A stretch of 64,000 nt of DNA, taken from contig CM066306.1 in NCBI GenBank assembly GCA_033807695.1, forward strand, positions 930,001 to 994,000, read 5' to 3'. A program made the translations under genes and the position numbers. A model generated the notes under the pieces. That model was not told the DNA's origin, searched no databases, and worked only from the letters and a program-made list of their open reading frames with translations. The stretch is from Daedaleopsis sinensis. Taxonomy: Eukaryota > Basidiomycota > Agaricomycetes > Polyporales > Polyporaceae. Shown piece after piece: positions 1,725 to 37,602 of this stretch. Numbering within the stretch: position 1 is the first letter of the stretch; each line of letters starts with the position of its first letter.

Positions 1725-3844
1725 ACAAGTCACTAGACCCTTCTTGTTCTGCTACCACCACCATCCGGATATTTACCCACGCTCCAGCCTTACAGGGGAG
1801 GCTGTTAGCGTGCGGCATACCTGGCTCTCTGGTGCTATATAGCTAGTTTACATACTCCTAGTCTACATTCTGGCGACCATGACAAAAAACAGACAACCCT
1901 GGAGGGCGACTCCAGCGAACGACACAACACAACAACTGCGGCAGCACTTAGACACCGGTGCCAGCTCAGCACCGACACCGGCTCGTGCGATGGCGGGAAC
2001 GACGGCAACAGTGAAGATGCAGTATCAGCTCTTTCGGGAAGCAGAAGAGCATCTCCCCGACCTCGATACATCCCTCGACTTTCTGCGCAAGCGAACACTG
2101 GTCCCGGAGAGCGATGACACACTCTCGGATGCGTCACTGGTCACCAGCCTCCTCCACCTCGCATTCTCTGTGCCGACCGCTGACCTAGCAAGGAAGAGCC
2201 TCATCGCCTTCGCCCATCTGGCAAAGGCCATAGCCTACAAGAAGCTGAATGGAACTCTTGTCGCGACGATTGCCGAGCGGATCGAAACCCAACTGACGCT
2301 CCGCCTGGACGCGCACACCAAGAAGGTCGAGCAGGAAGTATCGTCCGGAGCAGAAGGGATGGATGTGGTGAGGAGAGCGATGATGGAGTGCTCGGGACAG
2401 CTGGCGGAAGCAAGGAAAGGGCTTGAGGCAGCGATGGAGGCTCTGGCAGGAGCTCGAGAGGAACTACAGACATTGCAGGGCTCTCAAGACGCCCCAGGTG
2501 CGCCCCCTCCCCCCTCCCAAATTACGTTAGACTCCGCTCCCGCCCGAACATGTCGGGCGGTGGACCTTGCAGATCTACTCTAGCAACAACTGCTGGTGTG
2601 AGGGGCCGCCATCACGGACACGAGCGGGTCCAGGCTGTCGGACCGCAAGGCACTGGAGCGGGCACGTCAGGCGATCAACATCATGGCTGGCGAAGGGCTC
2701 ACGGCGCCGAAAGACGCGGCTATCGACTCTGCAAAAGTACAGCGGCACGGCAACGTCATTTTCATGCTCATGACCCGCGACATGGCCCGCTGGCTTCTCA
2801 GACCACACGTCAATACCTCCTTCACCAGAAAAATGGGCAGCAGCGCCAAGATCATCGAACACACGTATGAGTTAGTAGCAGAATTCGTCCCGGTGGAGTT
2901 TAACCCGGACGACATGGAGACGCTCCGCGAGGTTGAACGTGCACATGGTCTTCAAGACGGCGCCATCGTTCGCGCCGGATGGATCAAGCTTATCGAGAAA
3001 CGCTACGTGGGCCAGCGCACTGCCTACTTGAAACTGATATTTACCTGCGTTGACCAGGCTAACCATGCTCTCAAGGGCCTCATGCTCGCAGGACGCAGAG
3101 TAATAGTGTGGCGAGATATCAAGGAGCCAGCGAGATGCCTCAACTGCCAGGCCTACGACGGCCATCTGGCCAGGGAGTGTCCGTGCCGACACCCGGTTTG
3201 TGTAGTCTGCACCAGACACCACCCCACCAATCAGTGCATGATCAAAGAACCCGCTGATGAGCCTCAGGACCAGCTAGGCCCCGGAAACACCACGCAGCCC
3301 ATCACTATTCGCGCCCGTCAGTCAATTCACGCAGTATGAAGACGAGCGGCTTCACAAGGAAGGCGAGCGACTACCGAAGGAGCGAGTACGGAGACATGCC
3401 ATTCCGAGGGACGAAGGAGCCGATGCCGAGCTGCCGGCGGCTGACCGAGGTCGCCAGAGCTCTAGCCAGGACAGAGGAGGCGATCGATCGAGGGTCTGGT
3501 CTAGGCGACCGCCACGGAGTCCAGCAATTGGTACGAAGGTCGTCAGAAGAGGCACGGAAGACAAGGGAATGAGGGGGACGGCCTTCCGAGGCCTATGAAG
3601 ACGCGCGGATGGGCTTCAGACGCGATCACGTGGTGACGCGCCGCAAGACTAAGCGCTCTCGTGACCGCGGATGCAAGTCGAGCGGCGACGTGATAGGCTC
3701 GGTGCAAACACCTACCTAACCACCGGAGTGCGCCGTAGGGGTTCAGGAGAGGAGGATCGCGACGTGAGCGTGGGAGGAGCAGGGTTTCCTATGATTGGAC
3801 GATTGGTATGCTAGTTGTAGTTTATTTGGCGACGATTTGTACAG

Positions 3845-3851
3845 TATATAA
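3845..3851 (+). promoter_or_regulatory. LTR TATA box, gypsy A
   Basis: TATATAA lies about 315 bp before the LTR end, with transcription expected near 3870-3880. The motif is repeated in the 3' LTR and in both LTRs of copy B. The start site is inferred. Confidence 0.7.
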
Positions 3852-3934
3852 GCCAGCGGGATTGCAGCCCAGCAAAGCAGCGCAGTAGCTCCAGAGATCG
3901 AGTCCGAGCCCAAGAATCATCTAGTCGACACTCA

Positions 3935-4022
3935 ATTGAAGACCGTTCGTCTTCAATCTCCTCTTGCAGACTAGCCTCACCCACGGAAGTTGCTTGACTT
4001 CCATCTGAAGTTGCTCAACTTC
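3935..4022 (+). promoter_or_regulatory. Three consecutive leader hairpins in the LTR
   Basis: Stem 1 pairs 3935-3943 with 3949-3957 (9 bp, 5-base loop). Stem 2 pairs 3985-3990 with 3997-4002. Stem 3 pairs about 4007-4012 with 4017-4022. All arms use GAAG/CTTC-type sequence. In copy B the first stem is retained although its loop changes. Possible roles in packaging, dimerisation or translation are inference. Confidence 0.5.
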
Positions 4023-4163
4023 CTTGTCTATCGTCGACGGGCTACGTGAAGAAGAGCGACTACACCGGGAACCTGTCCTCCACCTCGCACCCTACTAGGT
4101 AGCTGATCTCGTGCTCGTTTGGGTGTGTGTTTCGCCCAGCGACCCAGAGTTACCCCATCATTC

Positions 4164-4181
4164 TGGAGCCCACCGCGAGGG
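4164..4181 (+). promoter_or_regulatory. Primer binding site, gypsy A
   Basis: TGG plus about 14 bases (tggagcccaccgcgagg) begins 3 bases after the LTR and is identical in copy B at 26727. It is complementary to a tRNA 3' end finishing GGGCUCCA. I cannot name the tRNA from memory. Confidence 0.6.
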
Positions 4182-4594
4182 GTACAAGAACAGTCTCCAC
4201 CGGTTCCGGCTCAAGAATCCCACGTTTGCGGCCGACGCGGAGCGAACGTATCCGTCGCCTCCATCGACAAACCGAACAGGCTTTAGAGGAAATCGAAGCA
4301 GAAGACCCCGAGAGAGCAGAGCAGATCACTACCGTTATCGAGAACAACTTCGCGGTTTTCGCAGACTCTCCGCTTACCGAACTAGAGGACGCTTCCGAAG
4401 ACGAGCAGGAGGACATTGAAGTTCCGGACCATCCGTTCCTGACTTCAGAATCAATTAGTAACCCAAGACCTACGCTATCACATACCGCAGGGGCCTTCAA
4501 CCTACCTAGGAACCCCCTTCCTTCCCTGCTAGCCTACGCCGCTCAAATATTACCTACGGCTCTACCACCCGTAGTACCACCAACAATCCATTCA

Positions 4595-7009
4595 ATGGCT
4601 AGCGCAGATCTATCGAAACTACCGTTGCGTACGGAAAGGAGTGCGCCCCAATTCGATGAGGAATCCAAGGACACCATCGAGCGGTACTTTGACGACCTTG
4701 CCCGACTCCTAAAGAAGCATAGCATCACTGATGAACAAGCTTGCAAGGCGGCGGCGGTCGACTACATACCAGCGGGAGTCGCCAAGCGATGGAAGTCCCT
4801 GCCGACGTTCTCGGACACCCAGAAGACGTATGAAGAATTCAAGACGGAGGTTCTATCCTTCTACCTCGGGACGGATGCCCAGTACACCTGGACACTGCGA
4901 GAATACAATGAAGTCATCGGGGAAGCCGTACGTACGGGGATATCCAGCCTCGAAACCTACATGAAGTTCTACGGCAAATTCTATCCCATCTACCGGTACT
5001 TGCATGCGAAGACCGAACCAGAGCTAACGGAGCGCGACGCGTCGACAGCCTTGCTACGGCTAGTTCCTATGCAGTACACAATGGCGGTATCCGCGCGGTT
5101 AGCACACCAGGTGCCTGCAAAACACAAAGAAGAAGCTTACACGGTCGCGCAAGTTCATGAAGCAATTTCCTATTGTCTGGCGGACGGAGGCCCGTTCGGC
5201 GGGATCGGAAGTTGGTCAACTGCGACGTCCGGTAACCTCGCTCGAGTCAATCCTCCGGCTCCAGCCATGGCCTCCACGGTTACGGTGAAAACTGAGCCGG
5301 ATCTATCGGCCTTCAAGCGGGAAATGATCTCCATGATGAGTTCGACCATGCGCGACTTCGTGAGCCAGCAGAGGATGCAAGCCACGCAACCGCCGCAACA
5401 AGGGGAACAATACCCTCCACCACCACAACCTCCCCAGGGAAGGTACCAGCAGCAGCAAGGGGGCCTATACGGACGTAATCCACCCGCTAACGACGAATGC
5501 ATCTACTGTGGCCTACCGGGATGTCGGTTGAAGACGTGCCCGAAAGTCGCAGAGGACATGACGGCGGGACTCATCCGGAAGGACGTATACGACAAAATCA
5601 TCCTACCAGGAGGCGGTGTGATCCCTCGTAGTCTGCCAGGGAACTGTATGCGCGATAGAGTCAATGCTTGGCACGAAAAGAACCCAAACCAACGAGCGCG
5701 AGGAACCATGAGCAAAATCTATCAGTTCGAGATGCAGGAAGACGAGCGTACCTTGGAAGAGGAGTTAGAAGTCCTCATGCACAAGGCAAACATGGTTAAA
5801 GAGCGCATGAACACTCGCTCGGGACGGCAGGTTTTTGATGGAGTCGAGCTAGAGACGCGGCCTCGACGTATTACGCGCAACTCGGAGAAAGGGAGGGACG
5901 ACACGCGGGCAGGGACGCCCGTGCGTGATCAGCCGCCTCACCAGCCGACGAGAGAGAAGGGGAAGGAGAAGGAGAAGCACGTTACCTGGGACACGAGGGC
6001 AAAAGAGCCTGAAGAGACCTTCCATCCTTATGCGCCGACTGTGGTACCCAGAGGCCAGGAACTGCCGAAGAAGGACGAACTACCGGTCAGAAGGACCGCA
6101 GCGATCATCAACCCGACCGCGGAAGAAAGAGTCTTCAACCGAAGCTTCGGAGACAGCCAGAGTATCACAGTGTCACCAGCCGAGCTACTCAGTATTTCTC
6201 CAGGACTCAGGAAGCGAGTGCATGAGGCCACAGCTCTCAGGCGAACGCAAGTCAGAGACGAGCAACTGCAGGAAGTGACCAACCGGGAAGGCGAGCGGCC
6301 TCGGAACAAGGTACTAGTGACCGAAGTCGCTGAAGACGAAGATTTCCCGGAAGACAACCTCCAGACAGCAGGAAGTTCATCCTCAGGGTCCGGAAGGCCG
6401 ACACTTGGATCCTTTGCATTCGTAGACCTAGACTATGAAGGCAGCGAGAACGAGGACGAAGAGCCAAAGTCGCACAATGCACCGTATGTAGCTCCGGGAC
6501 AAGGCTATCCTGCGAGCAGTCGGCGGAAGTCAACCATCGTAGCCTCGGAATCGGAGAAGCTGAGGTCGCTGTTCACCTGGGTAGCTCGAACGGACACGCC
6601 GACAGAGTGTACACTCGACGATGGGTCCCAGATCGTCGGTATAAACGACCAAATCGCTTATGCGTTGAAGATCCCCTACGATCCTACCAAGCGAAGGAGG
6701 ATGATCAGCGCAAATGGGACGGTCGACATGACACTCGGTCTAGCAAAGAACGTGCCTGTGGAATTAGGTGGCGGGATCGTGGTCTACCTCCAGATGCATG
6801 TTGTGAAGGCAGCGCCTTACCAGATCCTCCTAGGAAGGCCGTTCATGACGGTGATGCGTGCGAGGTCGAGCAACTCTATGGATGGCCAATTGTCAATTAC
6901 CGTCACTTGCCCTAACTCGAACCGCGAATTGACGCTACCGACCTACGCGCATGGAGACTCTCCGGGTTATGGACTCAGAGTCGAGGGTTTTCGGGCTTCG
7001 AGGATCTGA
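4595..7009 (+). CDS. gag: Gag-protease polyprotein, gypsy A
   Basis: The protein is 804 aa from the first ATG. The N-terminal half has the capsid-like retrotransposon gag domain (roughly residues 15-250). A Gln/Pro-rich linker follows, then a nucleocapsid-type knuckle near residues 300-315 (CIYCGLPGCRLKTC, with Cys where His is usual) and an acidic spacer. A retropepsin-like aspartic protease closes it, with the active-site variant LDDGSQ near residue 673 and a downstream ILLGRPF motif. Gag forms the particle and the protease matures it. The frame is also open upstream to 4103, through the primer site and into the LTR, but has no ATG there, so a longer non-ATG-initiated form is possible. The stop TGA (7007-7009) overlaps the pol ATG. 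Copy B has the same structure. Confidence 0.9.
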   Translation: MASADLSKLPLRTERSAPQFDEESKDTIERYFDDLARLLKKHSITDEQACKAAAVDYIPAGVAKRWKSLPTFSDTQKTYEEFKTEVLSFYLGTDAQYTWTLREYNEVIGEAVRTGISSLETYMKFYGKFYPIYRYLHAKTEPELTERDASTALLRLVPMQYTMAVSARLAHQVPAKHKEEAYTVAQVHEAISYCLADGGPFGGIGSWSTATSGNLARVNPPAPAMASTVTVKTEPDLSAFKREMISMMSSTMRDFVSQQRMQATQPPQQGEQYPPPPQPPQGRYQQQQGGLYGRNPPANDECIYCGLPGCRLKTCPKVAEDMTAGLIRKDVYDKIILPGGGVIPRSLPGNCMRDRVNAWHEKNPNQRARGTMSKIYQFEMQEDERTLEEELEVLMHKANMVKERMNTRSGRQVFDGVELETRPRRITRNSEKGRDDTRAGTPVRDQPPHQPTREKGKEKEKHVTWDTRAKEPEETFHPYAPTVVPRGQELPKKDELPVRRTAAIINPTAEERVFNRSFGDSQSITVSPAELLSISPGLRKRVHEATALRRTQVRDEQLQEVTNREGERPRNKVLVTEVAEDEDFPEDNLQTAGSSSSGSGRPTLGSFAFVDLDYEGSENEDEEPKSHNAPYVAPGQGYPASSRRKSTIVASESEKLRSLFTWVARTDTPTECTLDDGSQIVGINDQIAYALKIPYDPTKRRRMISANGTVDMTLGLAKNVPVELGGGIVVYLQMHVVKAAPYQILLGRPFMTVMRARSSNSMDGQLSITVTCPNSNRELTLPTYAHGDSPGYGLRVEGFRASRI

Positions 7010-7011
7010 TG
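7007..7011 (+). promoter_or_regulatory. TGATG stop/start overlap between gag and pol
   Basis: The gag stop TGA and the pol start ATG share one base, and pol is in the -1 frame relative to gag. Copy B has the same five bases at 29570-29574. The arrangement suits termination-reinitiation of translation. A -1 frameshift upstream is the alternative. Confidence 0.7.
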
Positions 7012-10000
7012 AACAGTCAGGGAGAGGTCGCTCTCGTCCTCGACTATGACGCAAGAACGGGTCAAGTTTTCACGACGGCGTACAAGGACTTAGAAAACCT
7101 AGAAAATTCCACAATTCAGTCAGCATATCTATCGGCCTGTGACGACTCCGAGACAAAGCAGAAAATCAAAACCATGTTCTCGAAAGTACCGATCCAGGAA
7201 TCGGAAGGGGATAGAATGCGGAGCCGACAACCACATCGCAAAGTCGACCGAGCCCTCTTCCGAGGACGAGCACTCCCAGTATACGCTACGAAAACCAGAG
7301 GCAGAAGAGCAGTCAGAATCCGGTCTAGGTCCAGCGAAGCAGCAAGAGCGAGCGAGAAAACCGAGCCGAGCGAGCAAGAACAAGAGGCGGAAGGCGAGCA
7401 ACTTCCAGAAGACGACGAGCGGCAAGCAGCCACCGAGGACCCCGAGAGCGTACGCAGCTACGTGAAATCGAAGAAGAAGTACAAGCCAGTGGATAAGAAA
7501 GTACGACCAGTGATTGGGGAGCTTCCCAAGCAGTACAGAATTGTACGGGAGATAATCGGCGACCCTCTCGAAGGGATGAAGCCGCTTAACCTCAATCCAA
7601 AGCCTTTTGAACCAACTGGGCGGTACACAGCTGAACGACGCGAGAAGCTCCACAAAGTCAATGCTCACCTATCGGAAGAAGAGCTAGCTTTGCTAGACGA
7701 CATGATGTGCAAACAGGAGCAGGGATTCGCTTGGGAAGACAGCGAGCGTGGCCACTTCAGGACGGACATGTTCCCACCAGTGAAGTTTGCGGTTGTGCCT
7801 CACACTCCGTGGATTGAAACGAATTTCCCCATTCCACCCGGAACCTACCGACAAATCTGTGAGATCATGAAGAAGAAAATAGAATCAGGCGTATACGAAC
7901 CCTCAAATGCGTCTTACCGATCCAGGTGGTTCTGTGTGCTGAAGAAGGACGGGAGTCTGAGGATCGTCCATAGTCTGGAGCCGCTCAACAGAGTCTCTAT
8001 TCAACACAGCGGTGTACCACCGATACCCGACCACATGGCGGAACGCTTTGCAGGGCGTGCGTGCGGGACGACCTTGGATCTATACGTTGGATACGACGAG
8101 AGGATCCTGGACGAAGAATCGCGCGACCTCACGACCTTCCAAACGCCTTTCGGAGCCATGCGACTGACGACGCTACCAATGGGATGGACAAATTCAGTAC
8201 CCATCTTCCACGACGACGTGACCTACATATTGCAGCCTGAAATTCCGGATACGACGATTCCCTACATCGACGACGTACCTGTCATTGGACCGGAGTCTTC
8301 CTACGAACGGGAAGATGGTTCTTTCGAGTGTATGAAGGGGAATCCAGGCATCAGGAGGTACATCTGGGAGCACATGCAAGACGTCAACAGGATTGTACAG
8401 CGGATGAAACATGCGGGAGGTACCTTCTCGGGCAAGAAGTTCGTCTGCGCGGCGCGCGACTTCGTAGCGGTGGGACATCGATGCACACCGGAAGGCCGTC
8501 TTCCAGAGAGAGGTTGCGTGGATGCGGTACTCAAATGGGGACCGTGTAAAAATGTTTCCGAAGTACGGTCGTTCCTGGGAACGGTAGGCGTTGGGAGGAT
8601 CTTCATCAAGAACTTCGGGAAGAAGGCCGCGCCATTAGTCAAGCTCACGCGGAAGGACGTACCGTTCGAATGGGGAGAGGAACAGGACAAGGCCATGGAG
8701 GATCTAAAGACAGCATTAGTGGAATCCCCGGCCTTGAAGTCGATCAACTACGAGTCGAAGGCCCCGGTAATTCTAGCGGTGGACACCTCTTATATCGCGG
8801 TCGGCTACCAGCTGTGTCAAGAGGATCCGGAAGACCCGCGGAAACGATACTACAACCGCTTTGGATCCATTACCTTGAACGAAAGGGAAGCCAGATTCTC
8901 GCAACCGAAGCTCGAGCTATATGGTCTGTACCGAGCATTGAAGGCGCTCCGCTTTTGGCTGGTCGGTGTACGGAACCTAATAGTAGAGATGGATGCGACA
9001 TCCACGAAAGCCATGATCCAGAATCCGGATGTCGCGCCGAATGCAGTCATGAATAGGTGGATCATTAGCATCAATATGTTCCACTTCGAAATGCGGCACG
9101 TACCTGGGATCTCCCATGGACCGGACGGTCTCAGCCGACGACCTGCGCAGCCTGAAGACGAACCAGAAGAAGCAGACAACGGAGAATTCGATGACTGGGT
9201 GGACAACATGTACGGCTTTACACACCTCATAAATCCACCTCCACACTTGGGAGACGCTCCTCTACAACACGAGGTTAAGCGGAAAACGAGCAACTTCGAG
9301 ACGGAAGCGATGGGCTTCAGTGCGCTCATGCAGCAGACAAGCGGGACGGCGGGCAAGCTACCGGACATTCCAGAAATTGACTATGCAATCGTACCACGCA
9401 CGGAGGTTGCCCAGAAGTTTGACCACAGAATAGCGAACATCTACGAATTTCTGTGCACCAAGAGAAGACCGAAGCTGGTTCAGAAGGAGCTCGATGCGTT
9501 CGTCAAATACGCAGGACAATTCTTCGTGAAGGATGGCCGACTATGGAAGATAGCGAAGAACGGGAACCACAGGAGAGTACTACCCCCAGAACTACGAGCG
9601 AAGGCATTCGTGAGCATGCACGACTTCATAGGACACAGAGGCGTACAGGCGACAATCTCCTTCGTGGCCGAACGGTTCTGGTGGCCAGAAATGAAGGCGG
9701 ATGTGGCCTGGTATGTGAGAAGCTGCCACCAATGTCAAATTCGACAAACTACGCGGATCTACATACCACCTTCAGTTTCCTATCCTGCGGCGCCGTTCGT
9801 ACGAGTTCACGTCGACTCTATGGACATGCCTGGCTCGTACAAGCACTTCTTCCATGCGAGGTGTGCAACCACAAGTTATGCTGAAGGACGGGCAAGTACA
9901 GTCCAAACAGCGAAGGCGGTCGGCGACTGGATCTACCAAGACCTGCTGTGCAGATGGGGAGCACTGTCCGAGATCGTTTCAGACAACGGAAGTCCATGGG

Positions 10001-10779
10001 TTGCAGCGTTGGAGTATCTGGCAAAGCAATACCACGTCAAGCACATACGGATCTCAGGATACAACTCACGAGCGAACGGGATCGTCGAGTGGCCTCATTT
10101 CCACGTCCGGGACGCGCTCTTCAAAGCATGCGAAGGTGATACGACGCAATGGGTGGCGCGGGTATATTCAGTACTCTGGGCGGACCGAATCACAGTACGC
10201 AGGAGACTAGGGTGCTCACCCTACTACGCGGTAACTGGGACGGATCCAATCCTGCCCATGGACATCACAGAAGCCACGTACCTGCTGCCTATACTGACGA
10301 AGCTCGTGTCCACAACGGAGTTGATCACCAACAGGGCGATGGCCTTGCAGAAAAGACCGGAGGACATAGCGCGGTTGCGGTCAACCGTCTACCGAACATG
10401 CGTGCAAGCTGCGGAGCTATTCGAGAAGGAACACAGCGCAACCATCCGAGACTTCAACTTCCAGCGAGGGAGGCTGGTTCTGATGCGGAACACGGCAATT
10501 GAGAAGTCGCTCAACAGGAAGATGAGACCACGGTACCTAGGCCCTCTAGTAGTGATATCGCGCAACAGAGGCGGCGCGTACATCATTGCAGAACTCGATG
10601 GGACCGTCTTCGATCGACCCATAGCGGCCTTCAGAATCATCCCCTACCTAGCGCGTGAGGACCCAATCAACTTCAATATTGAGGAACTGGACGCACCACA
10701 GAGCCGACTGCAAGAATTAGAAAACACAACAGAAAACTACGAAGAGGAAGGATTAGCAGACGACGACGAACACGGCTGA
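7009..10779 (+). CDS. pol: Pol: reverse transcriptase, RNase H, integrase (gypsy A)
   Basis: The protein is 1256 aa. A charged N-terminal extension (about 1-230) precedes the RT, whose catalytic box is YIDDV at residues 419-423 (YxDD type). RNase H follows from about 590, with its first Asp in LAVDTS and a later QPKLELYGLYRAL block. The integrase has an HX3H...CX2C zinc domain (about 870-910) and a DDE core: Asp in HVDSMD (about 935), Asp in SDNGSPW (about 990) and Glu in NGIVE (about 1027). The C-terminus has a GPLVV (GPY/F-like) module and no chromodomain. Together these copy element RNA into DNA and integrate it. In this copy the residue after the catalytic Glu is Trp, where copy B has the usual Arg. 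Confidence 0.93.
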   Translation: MNSQGEVALVLDYDARTGQVFTTAYKDLENLENSTIQSAYLSACDDSETKQKIKTMFSKVPIQESEGDRMRSRQPHRKVDRALFRGRALPVYATKTRGRRAVRIRSRSSEAARASEKTEPSEQEQEAEGEQLPEDDERQAATEDPESVRSYVKSKKKYKPVDKKVRPVIGELPKQYRIVREIIGDPLEGMKPLNLNPKPFEPTGRYTAERREKLHKVNAHLSEEELALLDDMMCKQEQGFAWEDSERGHFRTDMFPPVKFAVVPHTPWIETNFPIPPGTYRQICEIMKKKIESGVYEPSNASYRSRWFCVLKKDGSLRIVHSLEPLNRVSIQHSGVPPIPDHMAERFAGRACGTTLDLYVGYDERILDEESRDLTTFQTPFGAMRLTTLPMGWTNSVPIFHDDVTYILQPEIPDTTIPYIDDVPVIGPESSYEREDGSFECMKGNPGIRRYIWEHMQDVNRIVQRMKHAGGTFSGKKFVCAARDFVAVGHRCTPEGRLPERGCVDAVLKWGPCKNVSEVRSFLGTVGVGRIFIKNFGKKAAPLVKLTRKDVPFEWGEEQDKAMEDLKTALVESPALKSINYESKAPVILAVDTSYIAVGYQLCQEDPEDPRKRYYNRFGSITLNEREARFSQPKLELYGLYRALKALRFWLVGVRNLIVEMDATSTKAMIQNPDVAPNAVMNRWIISINMFHFEMRHVPGISHGPDGLSRRPAQPEDEPEEADNGEFDDWVDNMYGFTHLINPPPHLGDAPLQHEVKRKTSNFETEAMGFSALMQQTSGTAGKLPDIPEIDYAIVPRTEVAQKFDHRIANIYEFLCTKRRPKLVQKELDAFVKYAGQFFVKDGRLWKIAKNGNHRRVLPPELRAKAFVSMHDFIGHRGVQATISFVAERFWWPEMKADVAWYVRSCHQCQIRQTTRIYIPPSVSYPAAPFVRVHVDSMDMPGSYKHFFHARCATTSYAEGRASTVQTAKAVGDWIYQDLLCRWGALSEIVSDNGSPWVAALEYLAKQYHVKHIRISGYNSRANGIVEWPHFHVRDALFKACEGDTTQWVARVYSVLWADRITVRRRLGCSPYYAVTGTDPILPMDITEATYLLPILTKLVSTTELITNRAMALQKRPEDIARLRSTVYRTCVQAAELFEKEHSATIRDFNFQRGRLVLMRNTAIEKSLNRKMRPRYLGPLVVISRNRGGAYIIAELDGTVFDRPIAAFRIIPYLAREDPINFNIEELDAPQSRLQELENTTENYEEEGLADDDEHG

Positions 10780-11229
10780 CACTCACGTTGACGAGGACGT
10801 CAAATGGAAAAAGTGGGGGGGAGGAAGTCGCCTGACTACGGAAGTCAATTCCTCTACCGGCCGAAGAGCACTTCAAGAGGCGCTTCGCGCGTCGGTCATC
10901 TCGGAGATCACACAAGAAGAAGAGCAGAAGGCGATGCGATACATTCGGGATACTAGATACAGTACAGATTAAGACGGACAACAGAAGCTGAGCGCGACGG
11001 GATACGGGAAAGAAAACCAGAAGGAGACATTACAAAGCCCAGAGCGACAGGAGGGAGACGGAGAGACTAGTCCGCGGGAGACAGAGACGAGCAGAGGAGA
11101 TATATGCGAAAAACAGAAAACAAGACAGCGCGAGCCGCGCGACGACAGGACGAGACGACGACCAAGCAGGAGATGACAAGAAAAGCTAATAACAAGAAGT
11201 CCGTGGACGCGCGCGCGTCGAAGAAGTCC
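10780..11229. other. Convergent spacer between pol and AS3
   Basis: This 450 bp segment separates the pol stop from the AS3 stop on the other strand, so the two transcripts run toward each other. It is purine-rich on the plus strand. Open frames here look like shadows. It presumably holds the AS3 3' end. The sequence is nearly unchanged in copy B. Confidence 0.5.
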
Positions 11230-13493
11230 CTACTCGGCATTGCGAAGAAGCTCGAGGAGATCCTCACGATATCCATTGGACGCCACCAAGTCCTTGAAGG
11301 ACCGCACGTCGTCGCACCCTTCGATCTTCACGCCAAAATCGAGCTGGGTCTGTCGAGTCTCGCGGCGGGAAAGCTGCCGAATGGACACCAAGTCCTCGAC
11401 GATGCGCGCGCGTGCGAGGCTGACCTGCGAGCGAAGATGGTTGACCTTCGCGACGACCTCCGGCGAGAAGCTGACCGGCTCCGGCGACTTGCGCTTGGAA
11501 GATGAGGACTTGATCGAGATCTTGAGGGGCGTCGCCGGTTGGGAAGCAGACTTGGAGGGGCTCGGCTTCTCCTTCTTGACGCTGCCAGAAGCGCGAGACG
11601 AACGAGGAGGAGGCGTGGAGTCATCAGGTTCGGCCTTGCTGTTGCCATAGTCCTCGAGCAGGCGGCCCTTCCCGTCGAGCGAAGGATAACGCGTAGGACC
11701 CTCCGGGTACGGGTAGATGGGGGTGTCCTTCCGGATGGTCTTCGGACGAAGACGCTCCTGGAGCGCGGCCTTGTCGACGGAGAGGAATTTGTGCGAGTTC
11801 CTCTCGAACTGGCGGACGAAGTTGACGGCAAGAAGACGGTCGGCGGGCGGCAGCTGCGAAGGTTCCCGGAAGGAAAACCCAACGCCGTTGTACATCGCGC
11901 CGATGCGGGCGTGCACTAGAAAGAAGACAAGAAGTCAGCAAGAAGACCGAGGAAACAAGGGGAAAGGAACTGACCTTTGACCGTTCCCTGGACACTCAGG
12001 TGGTCATACGCGCACGAGAAGCTCTTCCCCTTCTTCTTGCAGAAGTTGCAGCGGAACGCGGAAGGGTACGGACGTCTGCAGGTGACCCCGGCGCGACGGC
12101 ACTCGTCGCAGTCGCCCTCGATCTGCACGGCGCTGGACAACTCCACGGAACCTTGGCGAGTGGAAGGAGGCTTCTTGTCGCGCTTCTTGACCCTAGGCGA
12201 CAACTCGACGACGGGAGGCGGACGTTTGCGGGGCGAGGTGCGGGACTTCTTCTTAGGAGGCTCCTCCTCCTCGAGTTGGTCGACTTCCTCTTCGCCTTCA
12301 TCGTCGACCTCGCCCTCGGCATCGCGGTCGGAATCGTCTTCGGGCGGGGAAACAGCCTTACGCTTTCCCTTGTCGACGGGCTTCTTGGGCGGCTCGCTCT
12401 CATCGGTGCTGAAGAAGAGGGGCGTCTTCTTCCTCTTCAGCGGCAGCTGAGACAGCGGAGGCGGAGGAGGATGGTCAGGCGAGAGGGGGGAGCGTGTGCG
12501 GAAACGACGAGGAGAGTCGCGCTGGGCAGCGTCGGCCAGAGGCTCGTCGTCAGAAGCTTCCTCCTCGGGAACGTACTCGGCACCAGTGACCATCGCAGCC
12601 AGGAAGGCGTCGCCAGGAAGTGCATCGGGGTCAGACGAAGGCGCGGAAGACGAGGAAGTGGGGCGCGTGACGAGCAACCTCGTGAGACGCTTCTTGTCGA
12701 GGACCGGGACGTAACGCATGCCGGACAGCAAAGGCAAGAACTGGTCGACGCGAGTGTCGATGGTTTCACGAGAGGCGCGCATGTCGGGCGGGTAATCGGC
12801 GACCTCCATCCAGCGCGGCTGGATGATCTCGTGGTACCAGTTCACTGCAAGGAAGAGGGGTCTTAGTCAAGCAAGAGTGAGGGCGAAGAACGTAAGTACT
12901 TACGCTCGAAGAAGCCCAGCCGAAGGCGGTGAGCCTGGAAGGCGATGTCGATCTCCAGCGGGGACTCCGTGACGGTGCTCGAAACCGCGAACAGCCGCAA
13001 CCGGCGAGAAGTCAGCGCGTACGAGCGAAAGAACTCCGAGACCAGGGAGGGCGGCGCGTAAAACTCGAACGTCGGTAGCGCGGCGAGGAGCAGGGGATCC
13101 AGATACCAATTCCACTCCGGGACGAGACGGTGCTGCGAAAAAGGAATGTGTCAGCAAGGCAGGACTTGGAAGGCCGGGACGGCGTACCAGAGCCATGACG
13201 ATACGATCAAACATGGCCTTGAACATGCCATATGAGAACGTAGCGAGCTGGTCGTCGGTGTACTCTTCCAAGATCGCCCGGAAGTCGCTAATCGTCAGCG
13301 GAGCGGCGTCCTGATCGCGAAGCTCGTCAGGCGTAGTAGGAACGGGCTCCTCACAGCCAAGTCGATCGGATTCACGCGTGAATTGCAACGGGAGCCACTT
13401 GAACAGCTCCTTGGGGATCGGTCGCCGAGGAGCATCGGAAGACGAGCGAGTGGCGGCGACGTTGGAAGACAAGCGACGGTTGGAAGCGGACAT
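11230..13493 (-). CDS. AS3: antisense Zn-cluster protein carried by gypsy A
   Basis: Four exons on the minus strand: 13493-13188, 13132-12904, 12844-11975 and 11915-11230. They join through GT-AG introns of 55, 59 and 59 bp into a 696-residue frame. The N-terminal ~250 residues look folded (with NWYHEI...PRWMEV). A long disordered Ser/Glu/Lys region with basic nuclear-localisation-like clusters (about 370-410) follows. Near 423-455 is a cysteine cluster of spacing CX2CX6CX9CX2CX8C, resembling a fungal Zn2Cys6 module. A further ~240 residues close it. There is no signal peptide or membrane segment, so it is not env-like. A nuclear DNA-binding or chromatin role is inference. The same gene with all splice sites is in copy B, and a diverged version is in the relic at 20781-21425. 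Confidence 0.8.
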
Positions 13494-13549
13494 GGTGGGC
13501 GATGTATGAGAAGACGAGAGGAGAACGCACGAAGGCGGACAACCAGAAG

Positions 13550-13566
13550 GCCAAAATGTTTATTAA
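13550..13566 (-). promoter_or_regulatory. Putative AS3 promoter (TATA-like)
   Basis: On the minus strand the string TTAATAAACA lies 60-70 bp upstream of the AS3 ATG at 13493, within the 173 bp gap between AS2 and AS3. It is unchanged in copy B. Confidence 0.4.
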
Positions 13567-13666
13567 GGGCGACAGTCAGAAGAACGTGAAGGGAACCGTG
13601 AAGTACAACGTCCAAATGCGGTAATCTAAGCGCTCTCCGCGCGACGGCGATCGAGGGCGGCCCCAA

Positions 13667-14321
13667 TCAGTCGCACATCAAAGGAATAGAACCGAAGACT
13701 TCATCCTCGTCTGACAGAGAGGACGGCGACCTTTCCAGCTTCTTGATGGCCGCGCGGAGGGCGGACTGCTCAATACGGACCCCGCGTAGTTCAGCGGCGA
13801 CCAATTCCAGACGCGCGAGTACTTCCGAAAAATGAACGCAGTACCGGTCGTCGCGTGCCAGGTCGCACATGACCTCCAGGAGTTGAAGTTCGTGTTGCAG
13901 AGTGGCGTGCACTGAGTCCAGGAAGTGGAGGCGGTACGGAAGGCGGTGCGTCTGGACCAGGTCGACAAGGAACGCCTCAAGACCGTTAGAGAAGAAACAC
14001 TGGTAGATGGCGATGGACACGCGGGCAAGTAGGTCGGAAACGTCGACGAGAAGGCCGTCATGAAGCATGCTCCAACCATACTGGGAAGGTGTCAATCAAG
14101 CGCGAGAAGCATCAGGCCGAGAAGCTCACCAAAAGTTGTCCTAAACGGGAAAGCGCGTGTTCATACACAACGCGGGGACAGCCGTGGTCGACGGATACCG
14201 TCTCGAAGAACTCGATTTGCTCAACAATGTGCGCACGAAGCGGGGAGAGGAGTTCAAGGGCCAACTCGCGGTGCGAGCTGACTTGGAGGGCGAGCATACG
14301 CGGGAGGACGGTCGACGACAT
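13667..14321 (-). CDS. AS2: antisense helical protein carried by gypsy A
   Basis: Two exons, 14321-14130 and 14080-13667, are joined by a 49 bp intron (GTGAGC...CCCAG) in phase 0, giving 201 aa. The protein is rich in Leu, Glu and Arg, predicted largely helical, with an acidic C-terminus (SLSDEDEVF). There is no signal peptide, membrane segment or recognised family. Copy B differs at eight residues, several of them non-conservative (Tyr/Asp, two Cys/Arg), so AS2 is less constrained than AS1. The start was chosen because it lies about 45 bp below a TATAAA. Function is unknown. It may partner AS1 or AS3, which is inference from co-occurrence only. Confidence 0.7.
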
Positions 14322-14363
14322 GATGAATGGAAGTTGATGAACTTCGAAGGCAGTTACAGCGGC

Positions 14364-14369
14364 TTTATA
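14364..14369 (-). promoter_or_regulatory. AS2 TATA box
   Basis: TATAAA on the minus strand sits 43-48 bp upstream of the AS2 ATG and 15-20 bp past the AS1 stop, so the genes are tightly packed but separately promoted. It is conserved in copy B. Confidence 0.5.
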
Positions 14370-14383
14370 CGACACGCGGCTAC

Positions 14384-14954
14384 TCAAAAGTGGATGTCCT
14401 CTCGGAGGCTGGCAAACTCCTGATCTATCTCCTCCATTTCCTTTTCGACCTTCCGGATCCGGGCATCAACCAGAATAGACTCCGTGATCAAGGATCCTCC
14501 GGCGCGGTTGAGGACGCGGCGCGCGCAGAGTTGCTTCCGGAGCCGCTGCTGACAAGCAATGCGACGGGCATCGAGATCGGCCCGACGAGCGCACCGACGG
14601 GACCGGGCGACAAGCTCTTGGAAGAGGAAGAGCTGACGGTCAGCCAAGGCAGGCCAGCCCTCGGTGATCGTATTCTCGGTCCGTTTCACGAAGTCCGCGG
14701 CAACCTCGCCATCGTCCCCCAAGGTGATCAAAGTGTCCTGCCATGAAGACAGTCAGCCACGAAGACGAGGGCCTACACGCGGAAGGAGAACGACGTACCA
14801 CCAGTTCAGCAATATGGTCGTAGGAATCGTAGATGATTCCAACGTCCTCTTCAGTACGAGCGGCAGCAAGAGCCTCGAACTCAGAGATCGCGACTTCAAG
14901 CTGACGGACAGTCTCCGTGAGGATGGGGACGTTGAGGAAGATGAAGGCAGACAT
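14384..14954 (-). CDS. AS1: antisense coiled-coil-like protein carried by gypsy A
   Basis: Two exons, 14954-14799 and 14737-14384, are joined by a 61 bp intron (GTACGT...GGCAG) in phase 0, giving 169 aa. The protein is strongly helical: an N-terminal Leu/Val heptad-like segment, an Arg/Cys-rich middle (RRCARRADLDARR) and a Glu/Lys-rich C-terminal helix ending REDIHF. No family is recognised and there is no signal peptide. Its start lies only about 85 bp inside the 3' LTR edge, below a TATATAA box. Copies A and B differ at nine bases across the exons (three in exon 1, six in exon 2) and at no residue, a clear sign of protein-level constraint. Confidence 0.75.
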
Positions 14955-14990
14955 TGCGGAGGATGAAAACCGAGGACGGAACGAGGGTGT

Positions 14991-15000
14991 TTATATACGC
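14991..15000 (-). promoter_or_regulatory. AS1 TATA box beside the 3' LTR
   Basis: The minus-strand sequence GCGTATATAA is 37-46 bp upstream of the AS1 ATG and 39 bp from the 3' LTR. It is conserved in copy B at 37555-37564. It would drive transcription inward, antisense to the genomic RNA. Confidence 0.6.
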
Positions 15001-15026
15001 GCAAACCGGGGACGGTTCGAATGCAA

Positions 15027-15038
15027 GTGGGGGGGAGG
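15027..15038 (+). promoter_or_regulatory. Polypurine tract, gypsy A
   Basis: A G-rich run (gtgggggggagg) directly precedes the TGATG of the 3' LTR, the usual place for plus-strand priming. Confidence 0.75.
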
Positions 15039-15944
15039 TGATGAGCCTCAGGACCAGCTAGGCCCCGGAAACACCACGCAGCCCATCACTATTCGCGCCC
15101 GTCAGTCAATTCACGCAGTATGAAGACGAGCGGCTTCACAAGGAAGGCGAGCGACTACCGAAGGAGCGAGTACGGAGACATGCCATTCCGAGGGACGAAG
15201 GAGCCGATGCCGAGCTGCCAGCGGCTGACCGAGGTCGCCAGAGCTCTAGCCAGGACAGAGGAGGCGATCGATCGAGGGTCTGGTCTAGGCGACCGCCACG
15301 GAGTCCAGCAATTGGTACGAAGGTCGTCAGAAGAGGCACGGAAGACAAGGGAATGAGGGGGACGGCCTTCCGAGGCCTATGAAGACGCGCGGATGGGCTT
15401 CAGACGCGATCACGTGGTGACGCGCCGCAAGACTAAGCGCTCTCGTGACCGCGGATGCAAGTCGAGCGGCGACGTGATAGGCTCGGTGCAAACACCTACC
15501 TAACCACCGGAGTGCGCCGTAGGGGTTCAGGAGAGGAGGATCGCGACGTGAGCGTGGGAGGAGCAGGGTTTCCTATGATTGGACGATTGGTATGCTAGTT
15601 GTAGTTTATTTGGCGACGATTTGTACAGTATATAAGCCAGCGGGATTGCAGCCCAGCAAAGCAGCGCAGTAGCTCCAGAGATCGAGTCCGAGCCCAAGAA
15701 TCATCTAGTCGACACTCAATTGAAGACCGTTCGTCTTCAATCTCCTCTTGCAGACTAGCCTCACCCACGGAAGTTGCTTGACTTCCATCTGAAGTTGCTC
15801 AACTTCCTTGTCTATCGTCGACGGGCTACGTGAAGAAGAGCGACTACACCGGGAACCTGTCCTCCACCTCGCACCCTACTAGGTAGCTGATCTCGTGCTC
15901 GTTTGGGTGTGTGTTTCGCCCAGCGACCCAGAGTTACCCCATCA
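15039..15944 (+). repeat. Gypsy A 3' LTR
   Basis: This 906 bp copy of the 5' LTR has one visible difference, A at 15222. The right copy of the CCGC target duplication is 15945-15948, after which LINE ORF1 resumes. Confidence 0.95.
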
Positions 15945-20610: not shown

Positions 20611-20656
20611 CAAGTCACTAGCAACAGGGGGCATCAAGTCTATGGGCAATCAGATA

Positions 20657-22344: not shown

Positions 22345-22359
22345 GGTTATGAGCCCTGC
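22345..22359 (+). promoter_or_regulatory. Copia primer site for an initiator-Met half-tRNA
   Basis: The 15 bases ggttatgagccctgc directly after the LTR are the reverse complement of GCAGGGCUCAUAACC, the anticodon stem-loop of yeast-type initiator tRNA-Met. Copia and Ty5 are known to prime from this internal region of a cleaved tRNA. Confidence 0.8.
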
Positions 22360-25816: not shown

Positions 25817-26723
25817 TGATGAGCCTCAGGACCAGCTAGGCCCCGGAAACACCACGCAGCCCATCACTATTCGCGCCCGTCAGTCAATTCACGCAGTATG
25901 AAGACGAGCGGCTTCACAAGGAAGGCGAGCGACTACCGAAGGAGCGAGTACGGAGACATGCCATTCCAAGGGTCGAAGGAGCCGATGCCGAGCTGCCGGC
26001 GGCTGACCGAGGTCGCCAGAGCTCTAGCCAGGACAGAGGAGGCGATCGATCGAGGGTCTGGTCTAGGCGACCGCCACGGAGTCCAGCAATTGGTACGAAG
26101 GTCGTCGGAAGAGGCCCGGAAGACAAGGGAGTGAGGGGGACGGCCTTCCGAGGCCTATGAGGACGAGCGGATGGACTTCAGACGCGATCACGTGGTGACG
26201 CGCCACAAGACTAAGCGCTCTCGTGACCGCGGATGCAAGTCGAGCGGCGACGTGATAGGCTCGGTGCAAACACCTACCTAACCACCGGAGTGCGCCGTAG
26301 GGGTTCAGGAGAGGAGGATCGCGACGTGAGCATGGGAGGAGCAGGGTTTCCTATGATTGGACGATTGGTAGGATAGTTGTAGTTTATTTGGTGACGATTT
26401 GTACAGTATATAAGCCAGCGGGATTGCGGCCCAGCAAAGCAGCGCAGTAGCTCCAGAGATCGAGTCCGAGTCCAAGAATCATCTAGTCGACACTCAATTG
26501 AAGACCGTCCGTCTTCAAACCTCCTCTTGCAGACTAGCCTCACCCACGGAAGTTGCTTGACTTCCATCTGAAGTTGCTCAACTTCCTTGTCTATCGTCGA
26601 CGGGCTACGTGAAGAAGAGCGACTACACCGGGAACCTGTCCTCCACCTCGCACCCTACTAGGTAGCTGATCTCGTGCTCGTTTGGGTGTGTGTTTCGCCC
26701 AGCGACCCAGAGTTACCCCATCA
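25817..26723 (+). repeat. Gypsy B 5' LTR
   Basis: This 907 bp LTR appears identical to 37603-38509. It has TATATAA at about 26408 and the same hairpin series as copy A. Confidence 0.95.
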
Positions 26724-27157
26724 TTCTGGAGCCCACCGCGAGGGTTTCAAGAACAGTCTCCACCGGTTCCGGCTCAAGAATCCCACGTTTGCGGCCGACG
26801 CGGAGCGAACGTATCCGTCGCCTCCATCGACAAACCGAACAGGCTTTAGAGGAAATCGAAGCAGAAGACCCCGAGAGAGCAGAGCAGCTCACTACCGTTA
26901 TCGAGAACAACTTCGCAGTTTTCGCAGACTCTCCGCTTACCGAACTAGAGGACGCTTCCGAAGACGAGCAGGAGGACATTGAAGTTCCGGACCATCCGTT
27001 CCTGACTTCAGAATCAATTAGTAACCCAAGACCTACGCTATCACATACCGCAGGGGCCTTCAACCTACCTAGGAACCCCCTTCCTTCCCTGCTAGCCTAC
27101 GCCGCTCAAATATTACCTACGGCTCTACCACCCGTAGTACCACCAACAATCCATTCA

Positions 27158-29572
27158 ATGGCTAGCGCAGATCTATCGAAACTACCGTTGCGTACGGAAA
27201 GGAGTGCGCCCCAATTCGATGAGGAATCCAAGGACACCATCGAGCGGTACTTTGACGACCTTGCCCGACTCCTAAAGAAGCATAGCATCACTGATGAACA
27301 AGCTTGCAAGGCGGCGGTGGTCGACTACATACCAGCGGGAGTCGCCAAGCGATGGAAGTCCCTGCCGACGTTCTCGGACACCCAGAAGACGTATGAAGAA
27401 TTCAAGACGGAGGTTCTATCCTTCTACCTCGGGACGGATGCCCAGTACACCTGGACACTGCGAGAATACAATGAAGTCATCGGGGAAGCCGTACGTACGG
27501 GGATATCCAGCCTCGAAACCTACATGAAGTTCTACGGCAAATTCTATCCCATCTACCGGTACTTGCATGCGAAGACCGAGCCAGAGCTAACGGAGCGCGA
27601 CGCGTCGACAGCCTTGCTACGGCTAGTTCCTATGCAGTACACAATGGCGGTATCCGCGCGGTTAGCACACCAGGTGCCTGCAAAACACAAAGAAGAAGCT
27701 TACACGGTTGCGCAAGTTCATGAAGCAATTTCCTATTGTCTGGCGGACGGAGGCCCGTTCGGCGGGATCGGAAGTTGGTCAACTGCGACGTCCGGTAACC
27801 TCGCTCGAGTCAATCCTCCGGCTCCAGCCATGGCCTCCACGGTTACGGTGAAAACCGAGCCGGATCTATCGGCCTTCAAGCGGGAGATGATCTCCATGAT
27901 GAGTTCGACCATGCGCGACTTCGTGAGCCAGCAGAGGATGCAAGCCACGCAACCGCCGCAACAAGGGGAACAATACCCTCCGCCACCACAACCTCCCCAG
28001 GGAAGGTACCAGCAGCAGCAAGGGGGCCTATACGGACGTAATCCACCCGCTAACGACGAATGCATCTACTGTGGCCTACCGGGATGTCGGTTGAAGACGT
28101 GCCCGAAAGTCGCAGAGGACATGACGGCGGGACTCATCCGGAAGGACGTATACGACAAAATCATCCTACCAGGAGGCGGTGTGATCCCTCGTAGTCTGCC
28201 AGGGAACTGTATGCGCGATAGAGTCAATGCTTGGCACGAAAAGAACCCAAACCAACGAGCGCGAGGAACCATGAGCAACATCTATCAGTTCGAGATGCAG
28301 GAAGACGAGCGTACCTTGGAAGAGGAGTTAGAAGTCCTCATGCACAAGGCAAACATGGTTAAAGAGCGCATGAACACTCGCTCGGGACGGCAGGTTTTTG
28401 ATGGAGTCGAGCTAGAGACGCGGCCTCGACGTATTACGCGCAACTCGGAGAAAGGGAGGGACGACACGCGGGCAGGGACGCCCGTGCGTGATCAGCCGCC
28501 TCACCAGCCGACGAGAGAGAAGGGGAAGGAGAAGGAGAAGCACGTTACCTGGGACACGAGGGCAAAAGAGCCTGAAGAGACCTTCCATCCTTATGCGCCG
28601 ACTGTGGTACCCAGAGGCCAGGAACTGCCGAAGAAGGACGAACTACCGGTCAGAAGGACCGCAGCGATCATCGACCCGACCGCGGAAGAAAGAGTCTTCA
28701 ACCGAAGCTTCGGAGACAGCCAGAGTATCACAGTGTCACCAGCCGAGCTACTCAGTATTTCTCCAGGACTCAGGAAGCGAGTGCATGAGGCCACAGCTCT
28801 CAGGCGAACGCAAGTCAGAGACGAGCAACTGCAGGAAGTGACCAACCGGGAAGGCGAGCGGCCTCGGAACAAGGTACTAGTGACCGAAGTCGCTGAAGAC
28901 GAAGACTTCCTGGAAGACAACCTCCAGACAGCAGGAAGTTCATCCTCAGGGACTGGAAGGCCGACGCTTGGATCCTTTGCATTCGTAGACCTGGACTATG
29001 AAGGCAGCGAGGACGAGGACGAGGAGCCAAAGTCGCACAATGCACCGTATGTAGCTCCGGGACAAGGCTATCCTGCGAGCAGTCGGCGGAAGTCAACCAT
29101 CGTAGCCTCGGAATCGGAGAAGCTGAGGTCGCTGTTCACCTGGGTAGCTCGAACGGACACGCCGACAGAGTGTACACTCGACGATGGGTCCCAGATCGTC
29201 GGTATAAACGACCAAATCGCTTATGCGTTGAAGATCCCCTACGATCCTACCAAGCGAAGGAGGATGATCAGCGCAAATGGGACGGTCGACATGACACTCG
29301 GTCTAGCAAAGAACGTGCCTGTGGAATTAGGTGGCGGGATCGTGGTCTACCTCCAGATGCATGTTGTGAAGGCAGCGCCTTACCAGATCCTCCTAGGAAG
29401 GCCGTTCATGACGGTGATGCGTGCGAGGTCGAGCAACTCTATGGATGGCCAATTGTCAATTACCGTCACTTGCCCTAACTCGAACCGCGAATTGACGCTA
29501 CCGACCTACGCGCATGGAGACTCTCCGGGTTATGGACTCAGAGTCGAGGGTTTTCGGGCTTCGAGGATCTGA
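27158..29572 (+). CDS. gag: Gag-protease polyprotein, gypsy B
   Basis: The protein is 804 aa from the first in-frame ATG, with the same domains as in copy A: capsid-like region, Gln/Pro linker, CIYC...C knuckle, acidic spacer and retropepsin-like domain with LDDGSQ and ILLGRPF. Only a handful of residues differ from A (for example Asp for Asn in the IIDPTAEE stretch and Leu for Pro in EDFLED). The in-frame upstream extension to the LTR is open and ATG-free here too. It ends in the TGATG overlap with pol. Confidence 0.9.
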   Translation: MASADLSKLPLRTERSAPQFDEESKDTIERYFDDLARLLKKHSITDEQACKAAVVDYIPAGVAKRWKSLPTFSDTQKTYEEFKTEVLSFYLGTDAQYTWTLREYNEVIGEAVRTGISSLETYMKFYGKFYPIYRYLHAKTEPELTERDASTALLRLVPMQYTMAVSARLAHQVPAKHKEEAYTVAQVHEAISYCLADGGPFGGIGSWSTATSGNLARVNPPAPAMASTVTVKTEPDLSAFKREMISMMSSTMRDFVSQQRMQATQPPQQGEQYPPPPQPPQGRYQQQQGGLYGRNPPANDECIYCGLPGCRLKTCPKVAEDMTAGLIRKDVYDKIILPGGGVIPRSLPGNCMRDRVNAWHEKNPNQRARGTMSNIYQFEMQEDERTLEEELEVLMHKANMVKERMNTRSGRQVFDGVELETRPRRITRNSEKGRDDTRAGTPVRDQPPHQPTREKGKEKEKHVTWDTRAKEPEETFHPYAPTVVPRGQELPKKDELPVRRTAAIIDPTAEERVFNRSFGDSQSITVSPAELLSISPGLRKRVHEATALRRTQVRDEQLQEVTNREGERPRNKVLVTEVAEDEDFLEDNLQTAGSSSSGTGRPTLGSFAFVDLDYEGSEDEDEEPKSHNAPYVAPGQGYPASSRRKSTIVASESEKLRSLFTWVARTDTPTECTLDDGSQIVGINDQIAYALKIPYDPTKRRRMISANGTVDMTLGLAKNVPVELGGGIVVYLQMHVVKAAPYQILLGRPFMTVMRARSSNSMDGQLSITVTCPNSNRELTLPTYAHGDSPGYGLRVEGFRASRI

Positions 29573-33342: not shown

Positions 33343-33792
33343 CACTCACGTTGACGAGGACGTCAAATGGAAAAAGTGGGGGGGAGGAAGTCGCTTGACT
33401 ACGGAAGTCAATTCCTCTACAGGCCGAAGAGCGCTTCAAGAGGCGCTTCGCGCGTCGGTCATCTCGGAGATCACACAAGAAGAAGAGCAGAAGGCGATGC
33501 GATACATTCGGGATACTAGATACAGTACAGATTAAGACGGACAACAGAAGCTGAGCGCGACGGGATACGGGAAAGAAAACCAGAAGGAGACATTACAAAG
33601 CCCAGAGCGACAGGAGGGAGACGGAGAGACTAGTCCGCGGGAGACAGAGACGAGCAGAGGAGATATATGCGAAAAACAGAAAACAAGACAGCGCGAGCCG
33701 CGCGACGACAGGACGAGACGACGACCAAGCAGGAGATGACAAGAAAAGCTAATAACAAGAAGTCCGTGGACGCGCGCGCGTCGAAGAAGTCC

Positions 33793-36057: not shown

Positions 36058-36230
36058 GGTGGGCGATGGATGAGAAGACGAGAGGAGAATGCACGAAGGC
36101 GGACAACCAGAAGGCCAAAATGTTTATTAAGGGCGACAGTCAGAAGAACGTGAAGGGAACCGTGAAGTACAACGTCCAAATGCGGTAATCTAAGCGCTCT
36201 CCGCGCGACGGCGATCGAGGGCGGCCCCAA

Positions 36231-36885: not shown

Positions 36886-36947
36886 GAAAAATGGAAGTTG
36901 ATGAACTTCGAAGGCAGTTACAGCGGCTTTATACGACACGCGGCTAC

Positions 36948-37518: not shown

Positions 37519-37602
37519 TGCGAAGGATGAAACCCGAGGATGGAACGAGGGTGTTTATATACGCGCAAACCGGGGACGGTTCGAATGCAAGTGGGGGGGA
37601 GG

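Follow-up and report, generated by a model that had tools for sequence, protein, structure and literature searches.

Spliced antisense genes between pol and the 3' long terminal repeat of a Ty3/gypsy retrotransposon lineage in Daedaleopsis sinensis

Antisense genes in gypsy elements and at this locus

Genes on the strand opposite to gag and pol have already been reported from several Ty3/gypsy retrotransposons. In fungi, Boty / BcGypsy1 of Botrytis and Sclerotinia carries the antisense gene brtn (Zhao 2011, as cited in PMC8365987 and PMC7264820). In plants, antisense open reading frames (ORFs) occur in Grande/RIRE2 (PMC11963269, PMC7264820) and in Retand, where they mostly encode a TRP28 domain and may bind DNA (PMC11963269). 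Here we analyzed a 64-kb stretch of contig CM066306.1 of Daedaleopsis sinensis (hereafter 'the window'), in which two gypsy copies, E1 and E2, both carry, downstream of pol and before the 3' long terminal repeat (LTR), three spliced genes in reverse orientation, AS1, AS2 and AS3. Like Boty, these are fungal gypsy elements with an additional antisense gene; however, the cited passages describe a single such gene in Boty, whereas two or three are present here. As with Retand and Grande/RIRE2, the antisense products are possibly DNA-binding or nuclear, but in contrast to the TRP28 products that predominate in the cited account, Pfam detected no TRP28 domain (PF04195) in AS1–AS3. A further parallel is HBZ of human T-cell leukemia virus type 1 (PMC11963269), an antisense retroelement gene whose product is a nuclear regulator, the kind of product that we predict here.

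A literature search, covering titles and abstracts in part, revealed no report of a fungal gypsy element with a spliced antisense block of several genes. The accounts of Retand and Grande mention neither a doubled polypurine tract nor a hairpin in the text searched, whereas both are present in families A to D described below. The initial annotation of this locus had cited only plant elements, usually with a single antisense ORF, as precedents; this was incomplete, as a fungal gypsy element with one antisense gene (Boty, brtn) had been published. Antisense genes in gypsy elements are thus already known, and what appears to be new here is a spliced multi-gene block between identical polypurine tracts with hairpins. 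With regard to the class of elements with an additional antisense ORF (Grande, Retand, Boty), the antisense promoters found here are only TATA-like boxes and are putative.

We consider it probable that these elements represent a Ty3/gypsy lineage in which pol and the 3' LTR are separated by an old accessory block, with two or three antisense protein-coding genes. In this reading, AS1 is likely a DNA-binding regulator and the polypurine tract following pol is a probable second plus-strand start. LTR retrotransposons are usually thought to require only gag and pol. The present lineage keeps two or three extra genes under selection, in an orientation that spares their introns from loss, and may serve as a test case for the self-regulation of a retroelement from its opposite strand. 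The elements and their antisense genes are as follows.

3255..15944, plus strand: E1, complete Ty3/gypsy element with an LTR pair and target duplication CCGC
11230..13493, minus strand: AS1, four exons, 696 amino acids (aa), Zn(II)2Cys6-like cysteine cluster
13667..14321, minus strand: AS2, two exons, 201 aa
14384..14954, minus strand: AS3, two exons, 169 aa, the most strongly constrained of the three genes
14990..14997, minus strand: putative AS3 promoter box TATATAAA, 36–43 bp above the AS3 ATG
25817..38509, plus strand: E2, second complete Ty3/gypsy copy, with target duplication CCGT and identical LTRs of 907 bp
33793..37518, minus strand: antisense cassette of E2, with polypurine tracts at 33376 and 37591

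The segment 11230–14954 extends precisely from the AS1 stop codon through the AS3 ATG. The claim of the initial annotation that both gypsy copies carry three tandem antisense genes with intact frames and splice sites was borne out: the gene models are open frames with GT..AG introns of 49–61 bp, and their counterparts in E2 contain no internal stops. The exons are 13493–13188, 13132–12904, 12844–11975 and 11915–11230 in AS1, 14321–14130 and 14080–13667 in AS2, and 14954–14799 and 14737–14384 in AS3. As many as 31 AS1 models longer than 650 aa were possible, and the one adopted was chosen for its GTAAGT donor at intron 2 rather than for length (the longest has 700 aa). A TATA-like box had also been placed 40–70 bp upstream of each gene. 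This agrees well with AS3 and with AS2 (TATAAA, 43–48 bp above the ATG), but AS1 has only a weak TTAATAA, approximately 67–73 bp above its ATG.

During the replication of LTR elements, the introns of antisense genes are not spliced from the sense genomic RNA. Because AS1–AS3 are antisense to this RNA, their introns would stay unspliced in it and survive reverse transcription, and in this way the antisense orientation would keep them. The proposed sequence of events is that promoters within the element drive transcription of AS1–AS3, that the host machinery splices the transcripts, and that the gene products would help the element in trans. AS1, with its divergent Zn(II)2Cys6-like cluster, would most likely act in the nucleus as a DNA-binding regulator, and AS2 and AS3 may be its small partners.

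We also searched the whole genome (51.6 Mb, 24 contigs); as only the best-scoring candidates were considered, all counts from this search are lower bounds. Pol of the window family (family A) was found at at least 34 places with 95–100% identity, plus three at 63%. In 27 of the 34, both parts of AS1 as well as AS2 and AS3 were found antisense to pol in the 9 kb downstream, usually at offsets of about 457, 1197, 2895 and 3612 bp. Among the others, one has AS1 merged into a single match that is actually complete, one lacks an AS2 match, another lacks a match to AS1 exon 4, one has no AS2 or AS3 nearby (such matches lie about 36 kb away on the same contig), and one extends past the end of its contig. 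The absence of homologues from all other gypsy copies, which the initial annotation had named as grounds for refutation, is thus not what this genome shows. Cassettes without an upstream pol also occur. In the window itself, positions 20655–21400 hold a relic of another related family, in which an LTR end (86% identical) is fused directly to an AS1-like sequence (49% aa identity) containing stops.

A search with 875 aa of family-B pol separated four further families from family A, most copies of which are 68% identical to this query. Family B has at least three copies, family C at least seven (90–92% identity to B), family D at least six (65%) and family E at least three loci (54–60% in the matched pieces). 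Three of the family-D pol matches, at C4:1832137, 1848146 and 1864155, are spaced by exactly 16,009 bp, which could reflect tandem duplication or an assembly repeat. We inspected one 3' region from each of families B, C, D and E (loci L040, L039, L041 and L042, respectively). Families B and C carry AS1, AS2 and AS3 ordered and oriented as in family A. The AS1 homologue is clear in both (tblastn E 9e-19 and 4e-21) and was found at all three family-B, all seven family-C and all six family-D pol copies; in family D, the AS1 profile matched the six-frame translations with E 7e-7. AS3 was found at all ten B and C copies in the genome search (28–31% identity, E 8e-9 to 2e-7). When the profile of family A was compared with that of B and C together, AS1 scored 130 against a maximum of 22.5 in 60 shuffles, and AS3 scored 86 against 18.2 in 60 shuffles. 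AS2 was assigned in B and C on the basis of its place, its intron and a weak match.

The intron sites of AS2 and AS3 match across families A, B and C, and that of AS1 intron 1 matches between A and B; two AS1 introns of A are missing from B, and the AS1 exons of C were assigned by eye from the tblastn alignment, no automated model having been obtained. TATA-like boxes are present upstream of AS3 and AS2 in all three families, with TATAAA in B and C at a site similar to that of the family-A AS3 box, and none was seen in the 90 bp inspected upstream of family-B AS1. Family D has a two-gene cassette, in which one small two-exon AS3-like gene lies beside AS1, and no AS2 was seen in the 3' region inspected. 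This small gene matches both AS2 (E 2e-5) and AS3 (E 8e-4), and direct comparison of AS2 with AS3 was not significant (E 0.45); from these comparisons, AS2 and AS3 may be paralogues.

Polypurine tracts and hairpins framing the block

Two identical polypurine tracts, each preceded by a hairpin, frame the antisense block of E1.

10788..10803, plus strand: hairpin upstream of PPT1, TTGACG-AGGA-CGTCAA, a perfect 6-bp stem, reached by 13 of 20000 shuffles
10813..10824, plus strand: PPT1, internal polypurine tract GTGGGGGGGAGG, directly 3' of pol
15004..15017, plus strand: hairpin upstream of PPT2, AACCG-GGGA-CGGTT, a perfect 5-bp stem, reached by 105 of 20000 shuffles
15027..15038, plus strand: PPT2, polypurine tract adjoining the 3' LTR, with the same core as PPT1

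The 12-mer GTGGGGGGGAGG occurs four times in the window, namely at both tracts of E1 and both tracts of E2. Each of families A to D has two tracts, one following pol and the other preceding the 3' LTR, and both tracts of a family share one core, which is GTGGGGGGGAGG in A, CAGTTGGGGGGAGA in families B and C, and GTGGGGAGGAGG in D. In the stretches inspected, these cores are confined to those two places per element. Looser G-rich runs exist elsewhere in the cassettes, and a looser pattern gives two to three extra matches in B. Family E has a single tract, after pol, in one copy, and a tract with a hairpin at the expected place in two other copies; we infer that this tract is followed by an LTR, the LTR pair being unmatched.

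Just upstream of the tracts in families A to E lies a hairpin whose loop consists of four purines. In seven of nine representative units, the stem is perfect, with 5–7 pairs, and ends 6–9 bases before the tract; stems of this kind arose in 3 to 105 of 20000 shuffles per unit and at 0.08–0.6% of positions in the source sequences. The hairpin is present in 43 of 45 stretches, 10 of which have the mismatched form of B and C described below; of the other two stretches, one is cut short and one lacks the tract. Many of these stretches are near-identical copies, so that the independent units number at most nine. The stem arms vary between units, and this favours pairing over a fixed binding sequence. 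We also considered the palindromes at PPT2 as binding sites for AS1. In A, B and C, PPT2 has CCG-N4-CGG, which would suit a zinc-cluster binding site. However, this candidate was rejected, because the PPT1 and PPT2 hairpins of one element have different arms, because the four-base loop is kept, and because the hairpin also occurs in family E in the absence of AS1. It is therefore likelier that the hairpins act as structure in RNA or single-stranded DNA.

Internal polypurine tracts serve as a second plus-strand start in foamy viruses and human immunodeficiency virus type 1 (PMC5294762, PMC4393142). PPT1 would likewise provide an additional, internal origin of plus-strand DNA; in contrast to these viruses, in which the cited accounts place the tract in pol, the second tract here forms the border of a gene block and is preceded by a hairpin. 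In the titles and parts of abstracts covered, our literature search found no hairpins at polypurine tracts, or doubling of them, as seen here. The repeated hairpin-tract unit would offer a concrete, testable feature of plus-strand priming.

The main alternative to plus-strand priming is that PPT1 is a now functionless relic of a 3' end that predates the block, which would have been gained when recombination or insertion took place at the tract. We regard this as a real, if lesser, possibility. Family E, with one post-pol tract and no block, resembles the arrangement expected before such a gain; in the single copy inspected, tblastn at E 0.05 revealed no cassette. Moreover, the PPT1 hairpins of B and C (two of the nine units) have one mismatch and fail the perfect-stem test, the geometry of which was itself chosen after the sequences had been inspected. 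Against a relic, PPT1 and PPT2 are exactly identical within each of A to D even though the families differ, an identity that copying from tract to tract could also produce, and perfect PPT1 stems have been kept in A and D (units A1 and D1). We consider plus-strand priming from PPT1 the more probable reading.

E1 and E2 are 98.7% identical, and their divergence is mosaic, with one difference over 6755–9254, approximately 1–3% in the cassette and 1.9% in the LTRs; this suggests that cassettes have been swapped between copies. More tentatively, and with some doubt on our part, the antisense block, comprising a zinc-cluster regulator and small spliced partners framed by two hairpin-tract units, may form a separately primed, exchangeable module that regulates the element from the opposite strand.

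Coding function and origin of the antisense genes

Next, we compared synonymous and nonsynonymous changes. Between E1 and E2, AS3 has nine synonymous and no nonsynonymous differences (P ~3e-6 under neutrality), and AS1 has 26 and 15 (P 2e-7), with a ratio of nonsynonymous to synonymous rates (dN/dS) of 0.18. For gag-pro and pol, dN/dS was 0.20 and 0.16. Between B and C, dN/dS of the main exons was 0.42 in AS1, 0.15 in AS2 and 0.07 in AS3, and that of the final 128 pol codons was 0.14; AS3 is constrained as strongly as the polymerase of the element. In a six-frame test of B and C, only the antisense frame was stop-free, with the lowest dN/dS, for each of the three genes, and this ruled out AS1–AS3 as chance open frames. 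Two family-D copies differ by 22 synonymous changes and one nonsynonymous change in the AS3-like gene, and their AS1 has a dN/dS of 0.28 over 398 codons. AS1 exon 4 was compared over 29 copies and the reference, with L037 as the one locus of 30 in which the region is missing. Of its 78 polymorphic codon sites, 48 vary at the third position, and 51 changes are synonymous and 30 nonsynonymous. These selection tests strongly support a predicted coding function for AS1 and AS3 and support one for AS2, mainly through the B–C comparison.

The same tests bear on the idea that the antisense transcripts act as RNA, pairing with the sense genomic RNA and dampening the element or feeding host silencing, with the frames being incidental. 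Antisense transcription alone is able to regulate retroelements, according to a review (PMC7264820), and the cassette region is GC-rich, with further long open frames on both strands. However, purifying selection acts on the protein frame, the sole stop-free one of six, and introns and six invariant cysteines are shared among the families; we therefore regard this explanation as unlikely.

These six cysteines are found in all five AS1 sequences compared (A, B, C, D and P0001) and are followed by a conserved stretch. P0001, 87% identical to family-C AS1, is the only AS1 relative found outside this genome, in protein-database searches limited in part to the best ~8000 candidates. The Zn(II)2Cys6 rule is C-x2-C-x6-C-x5-12-C-x2-C-x6-8-C. 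Family A fits it (2-6-9-2-8), the last gap is 9 in B and C, and the second gap is 8 in D. With a threshold of E 10, a profile of the AS1 core hit 10 PDB sequences. These belong to five proteins that we take to be of the Zn(II)2Cys6 family, namely LAC9, CYP1/HAP1, GAL4, CBF3 subunit B and the ethanol regulon factor. AS1 thus resembles the Zn(II)2Cys6 family, as judged from its sequence, and is not assigned to it as a member; the resemblance to this DNA-binding cluster makes a regulatory role plausible. HBZ is a bZIP protein, unlike AS1 with its Zn(II)2Cys6-like cluster. AS2 and AS3 have no Pfam or NCBIfam family, with only weak matches below cut-off; by eye, their sequences suggest that they may be helical.

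Several results weigh against the reading that we favour. For AS1, the best PDB match is weak (E 0.072); the best core sequence reaches 14.8 bits for Pfam Zn_clus, below the cut-off of 21, and only two of the five core sequences match; whole AS1 scores 8.9 bits, and the B and C exons have no match. The predicted structure of P0001 is uninformative, with a mean predicted local distance difference test score of 40. For AS2, the difference between E1 and E2 (seven synonymous and eight nonsynonymous changes, dN/dS 0.37, P ~0.06) indicates no clear constraint, the profile comparison is weak (29.1 against a maximum of 24.4 in 60 shuffles), and no copy in B or C emerged from the genome search. In addition, synonymous sites between B and C are near saturation (dS 0.9–1.3), two of the six family-D AS1 copies have one TAG within the matched stretch, two of the 34 family-A pol copies, both truncated, lack a cassette, and family E, as judged from the copy inspected, does without one.

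Given that cassettes occupy the same place in A to D and are under purifying selection, we suggest that they are an old, maintained part of the lineage rather than a recent capture, and recent capture from the host is ruled out by the cassettes in three other families. That AS1–AS3 are captured host genes, either passengers or in a host-like role, is improbable: although their introns and promoters are host-gene-like and capture by retroelements is known, the homologues at the same place in A to D point to an old gain, and no clear host source was found among the best-scored matches in this genome, which were gypsy cassettes and a few isolated or partial matches, among them those at C8:2882119 (AS2) and C7:2425222 (family-D AS1). 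Of the acquired helper genes proposed in the initial annotation, modular accessory genes kept in place and in frame across families thus agree with our results; a host-derived origin is not supported by them, no clear host gene having been seen among the best-scored matches. Of the roles suggested there (regulation, anti-silencing or targeting), regulation is plausible from the cysteine cluster of AS1.

Structure of E1 and neighbouring sequences

The remaining parts of E1 are as follows.

3255–4160 and 15039–15944, plus strand: LTRs of E1, 906 bp each
4127..7009, plus strand: gag-pro open frame, with its 5' portion within the LTR and its start codon unfixed
7009..10779, plus strand: pol, with Pfam RVT_1, RT_RNaseH, RT_RNaseH_2 and Integrase_H2C2

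Both elements have LTRs ending in TG..CA, and comparison of the flanks showed 4-bp target duplications. The two LTRs differ at one of 906 sites in E1 and at none of 907 in E2, and this near-zero divergence indicates that both insertions are recent. The domain order of pol is gypsy-like (RVT_1 at 315–480, RNase H at 555–690 and Integrase_H2C2 at 859–914), so that the LTR pair with target duplication and the order reverse transcriptase, RNase H, integrase place these elements in Ty3/gypsy. Among the Pfam matches of pol, only the zinc domain Integrase_H2C2 represents the integrase, the integrase core not being listed, and gag-pro matches an aspartyl protease with E 1e-5, under the Pfam cut-off. 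The gag-pro stop overlaps the pol start in TGATG at 7007–7011, which suggests that pol may be made by termination and reinitiation.

E2 is nested in a Ty1/copia element, of which the frame at 22374–25816, encoding a reverse transcriptase, stops at 25816; beyond E2, a 206-bp repeat at 39579–39784 is identical to 22140–22345. Just downstream of E1, a frame resembling the endonuclease and reverse transcriptase of a long interspersed nuclear element (LINE) lies at 16417–18129, and E1 was probably inserted into or beside this LINE. Finally, 45980–50770 contains three related copies, spaced approximately 2.0–2.2 kb apart and 67–78% identical to the reference copies; their minus-strand open frames match no Pfam family and are perhaps a tandem gene family.

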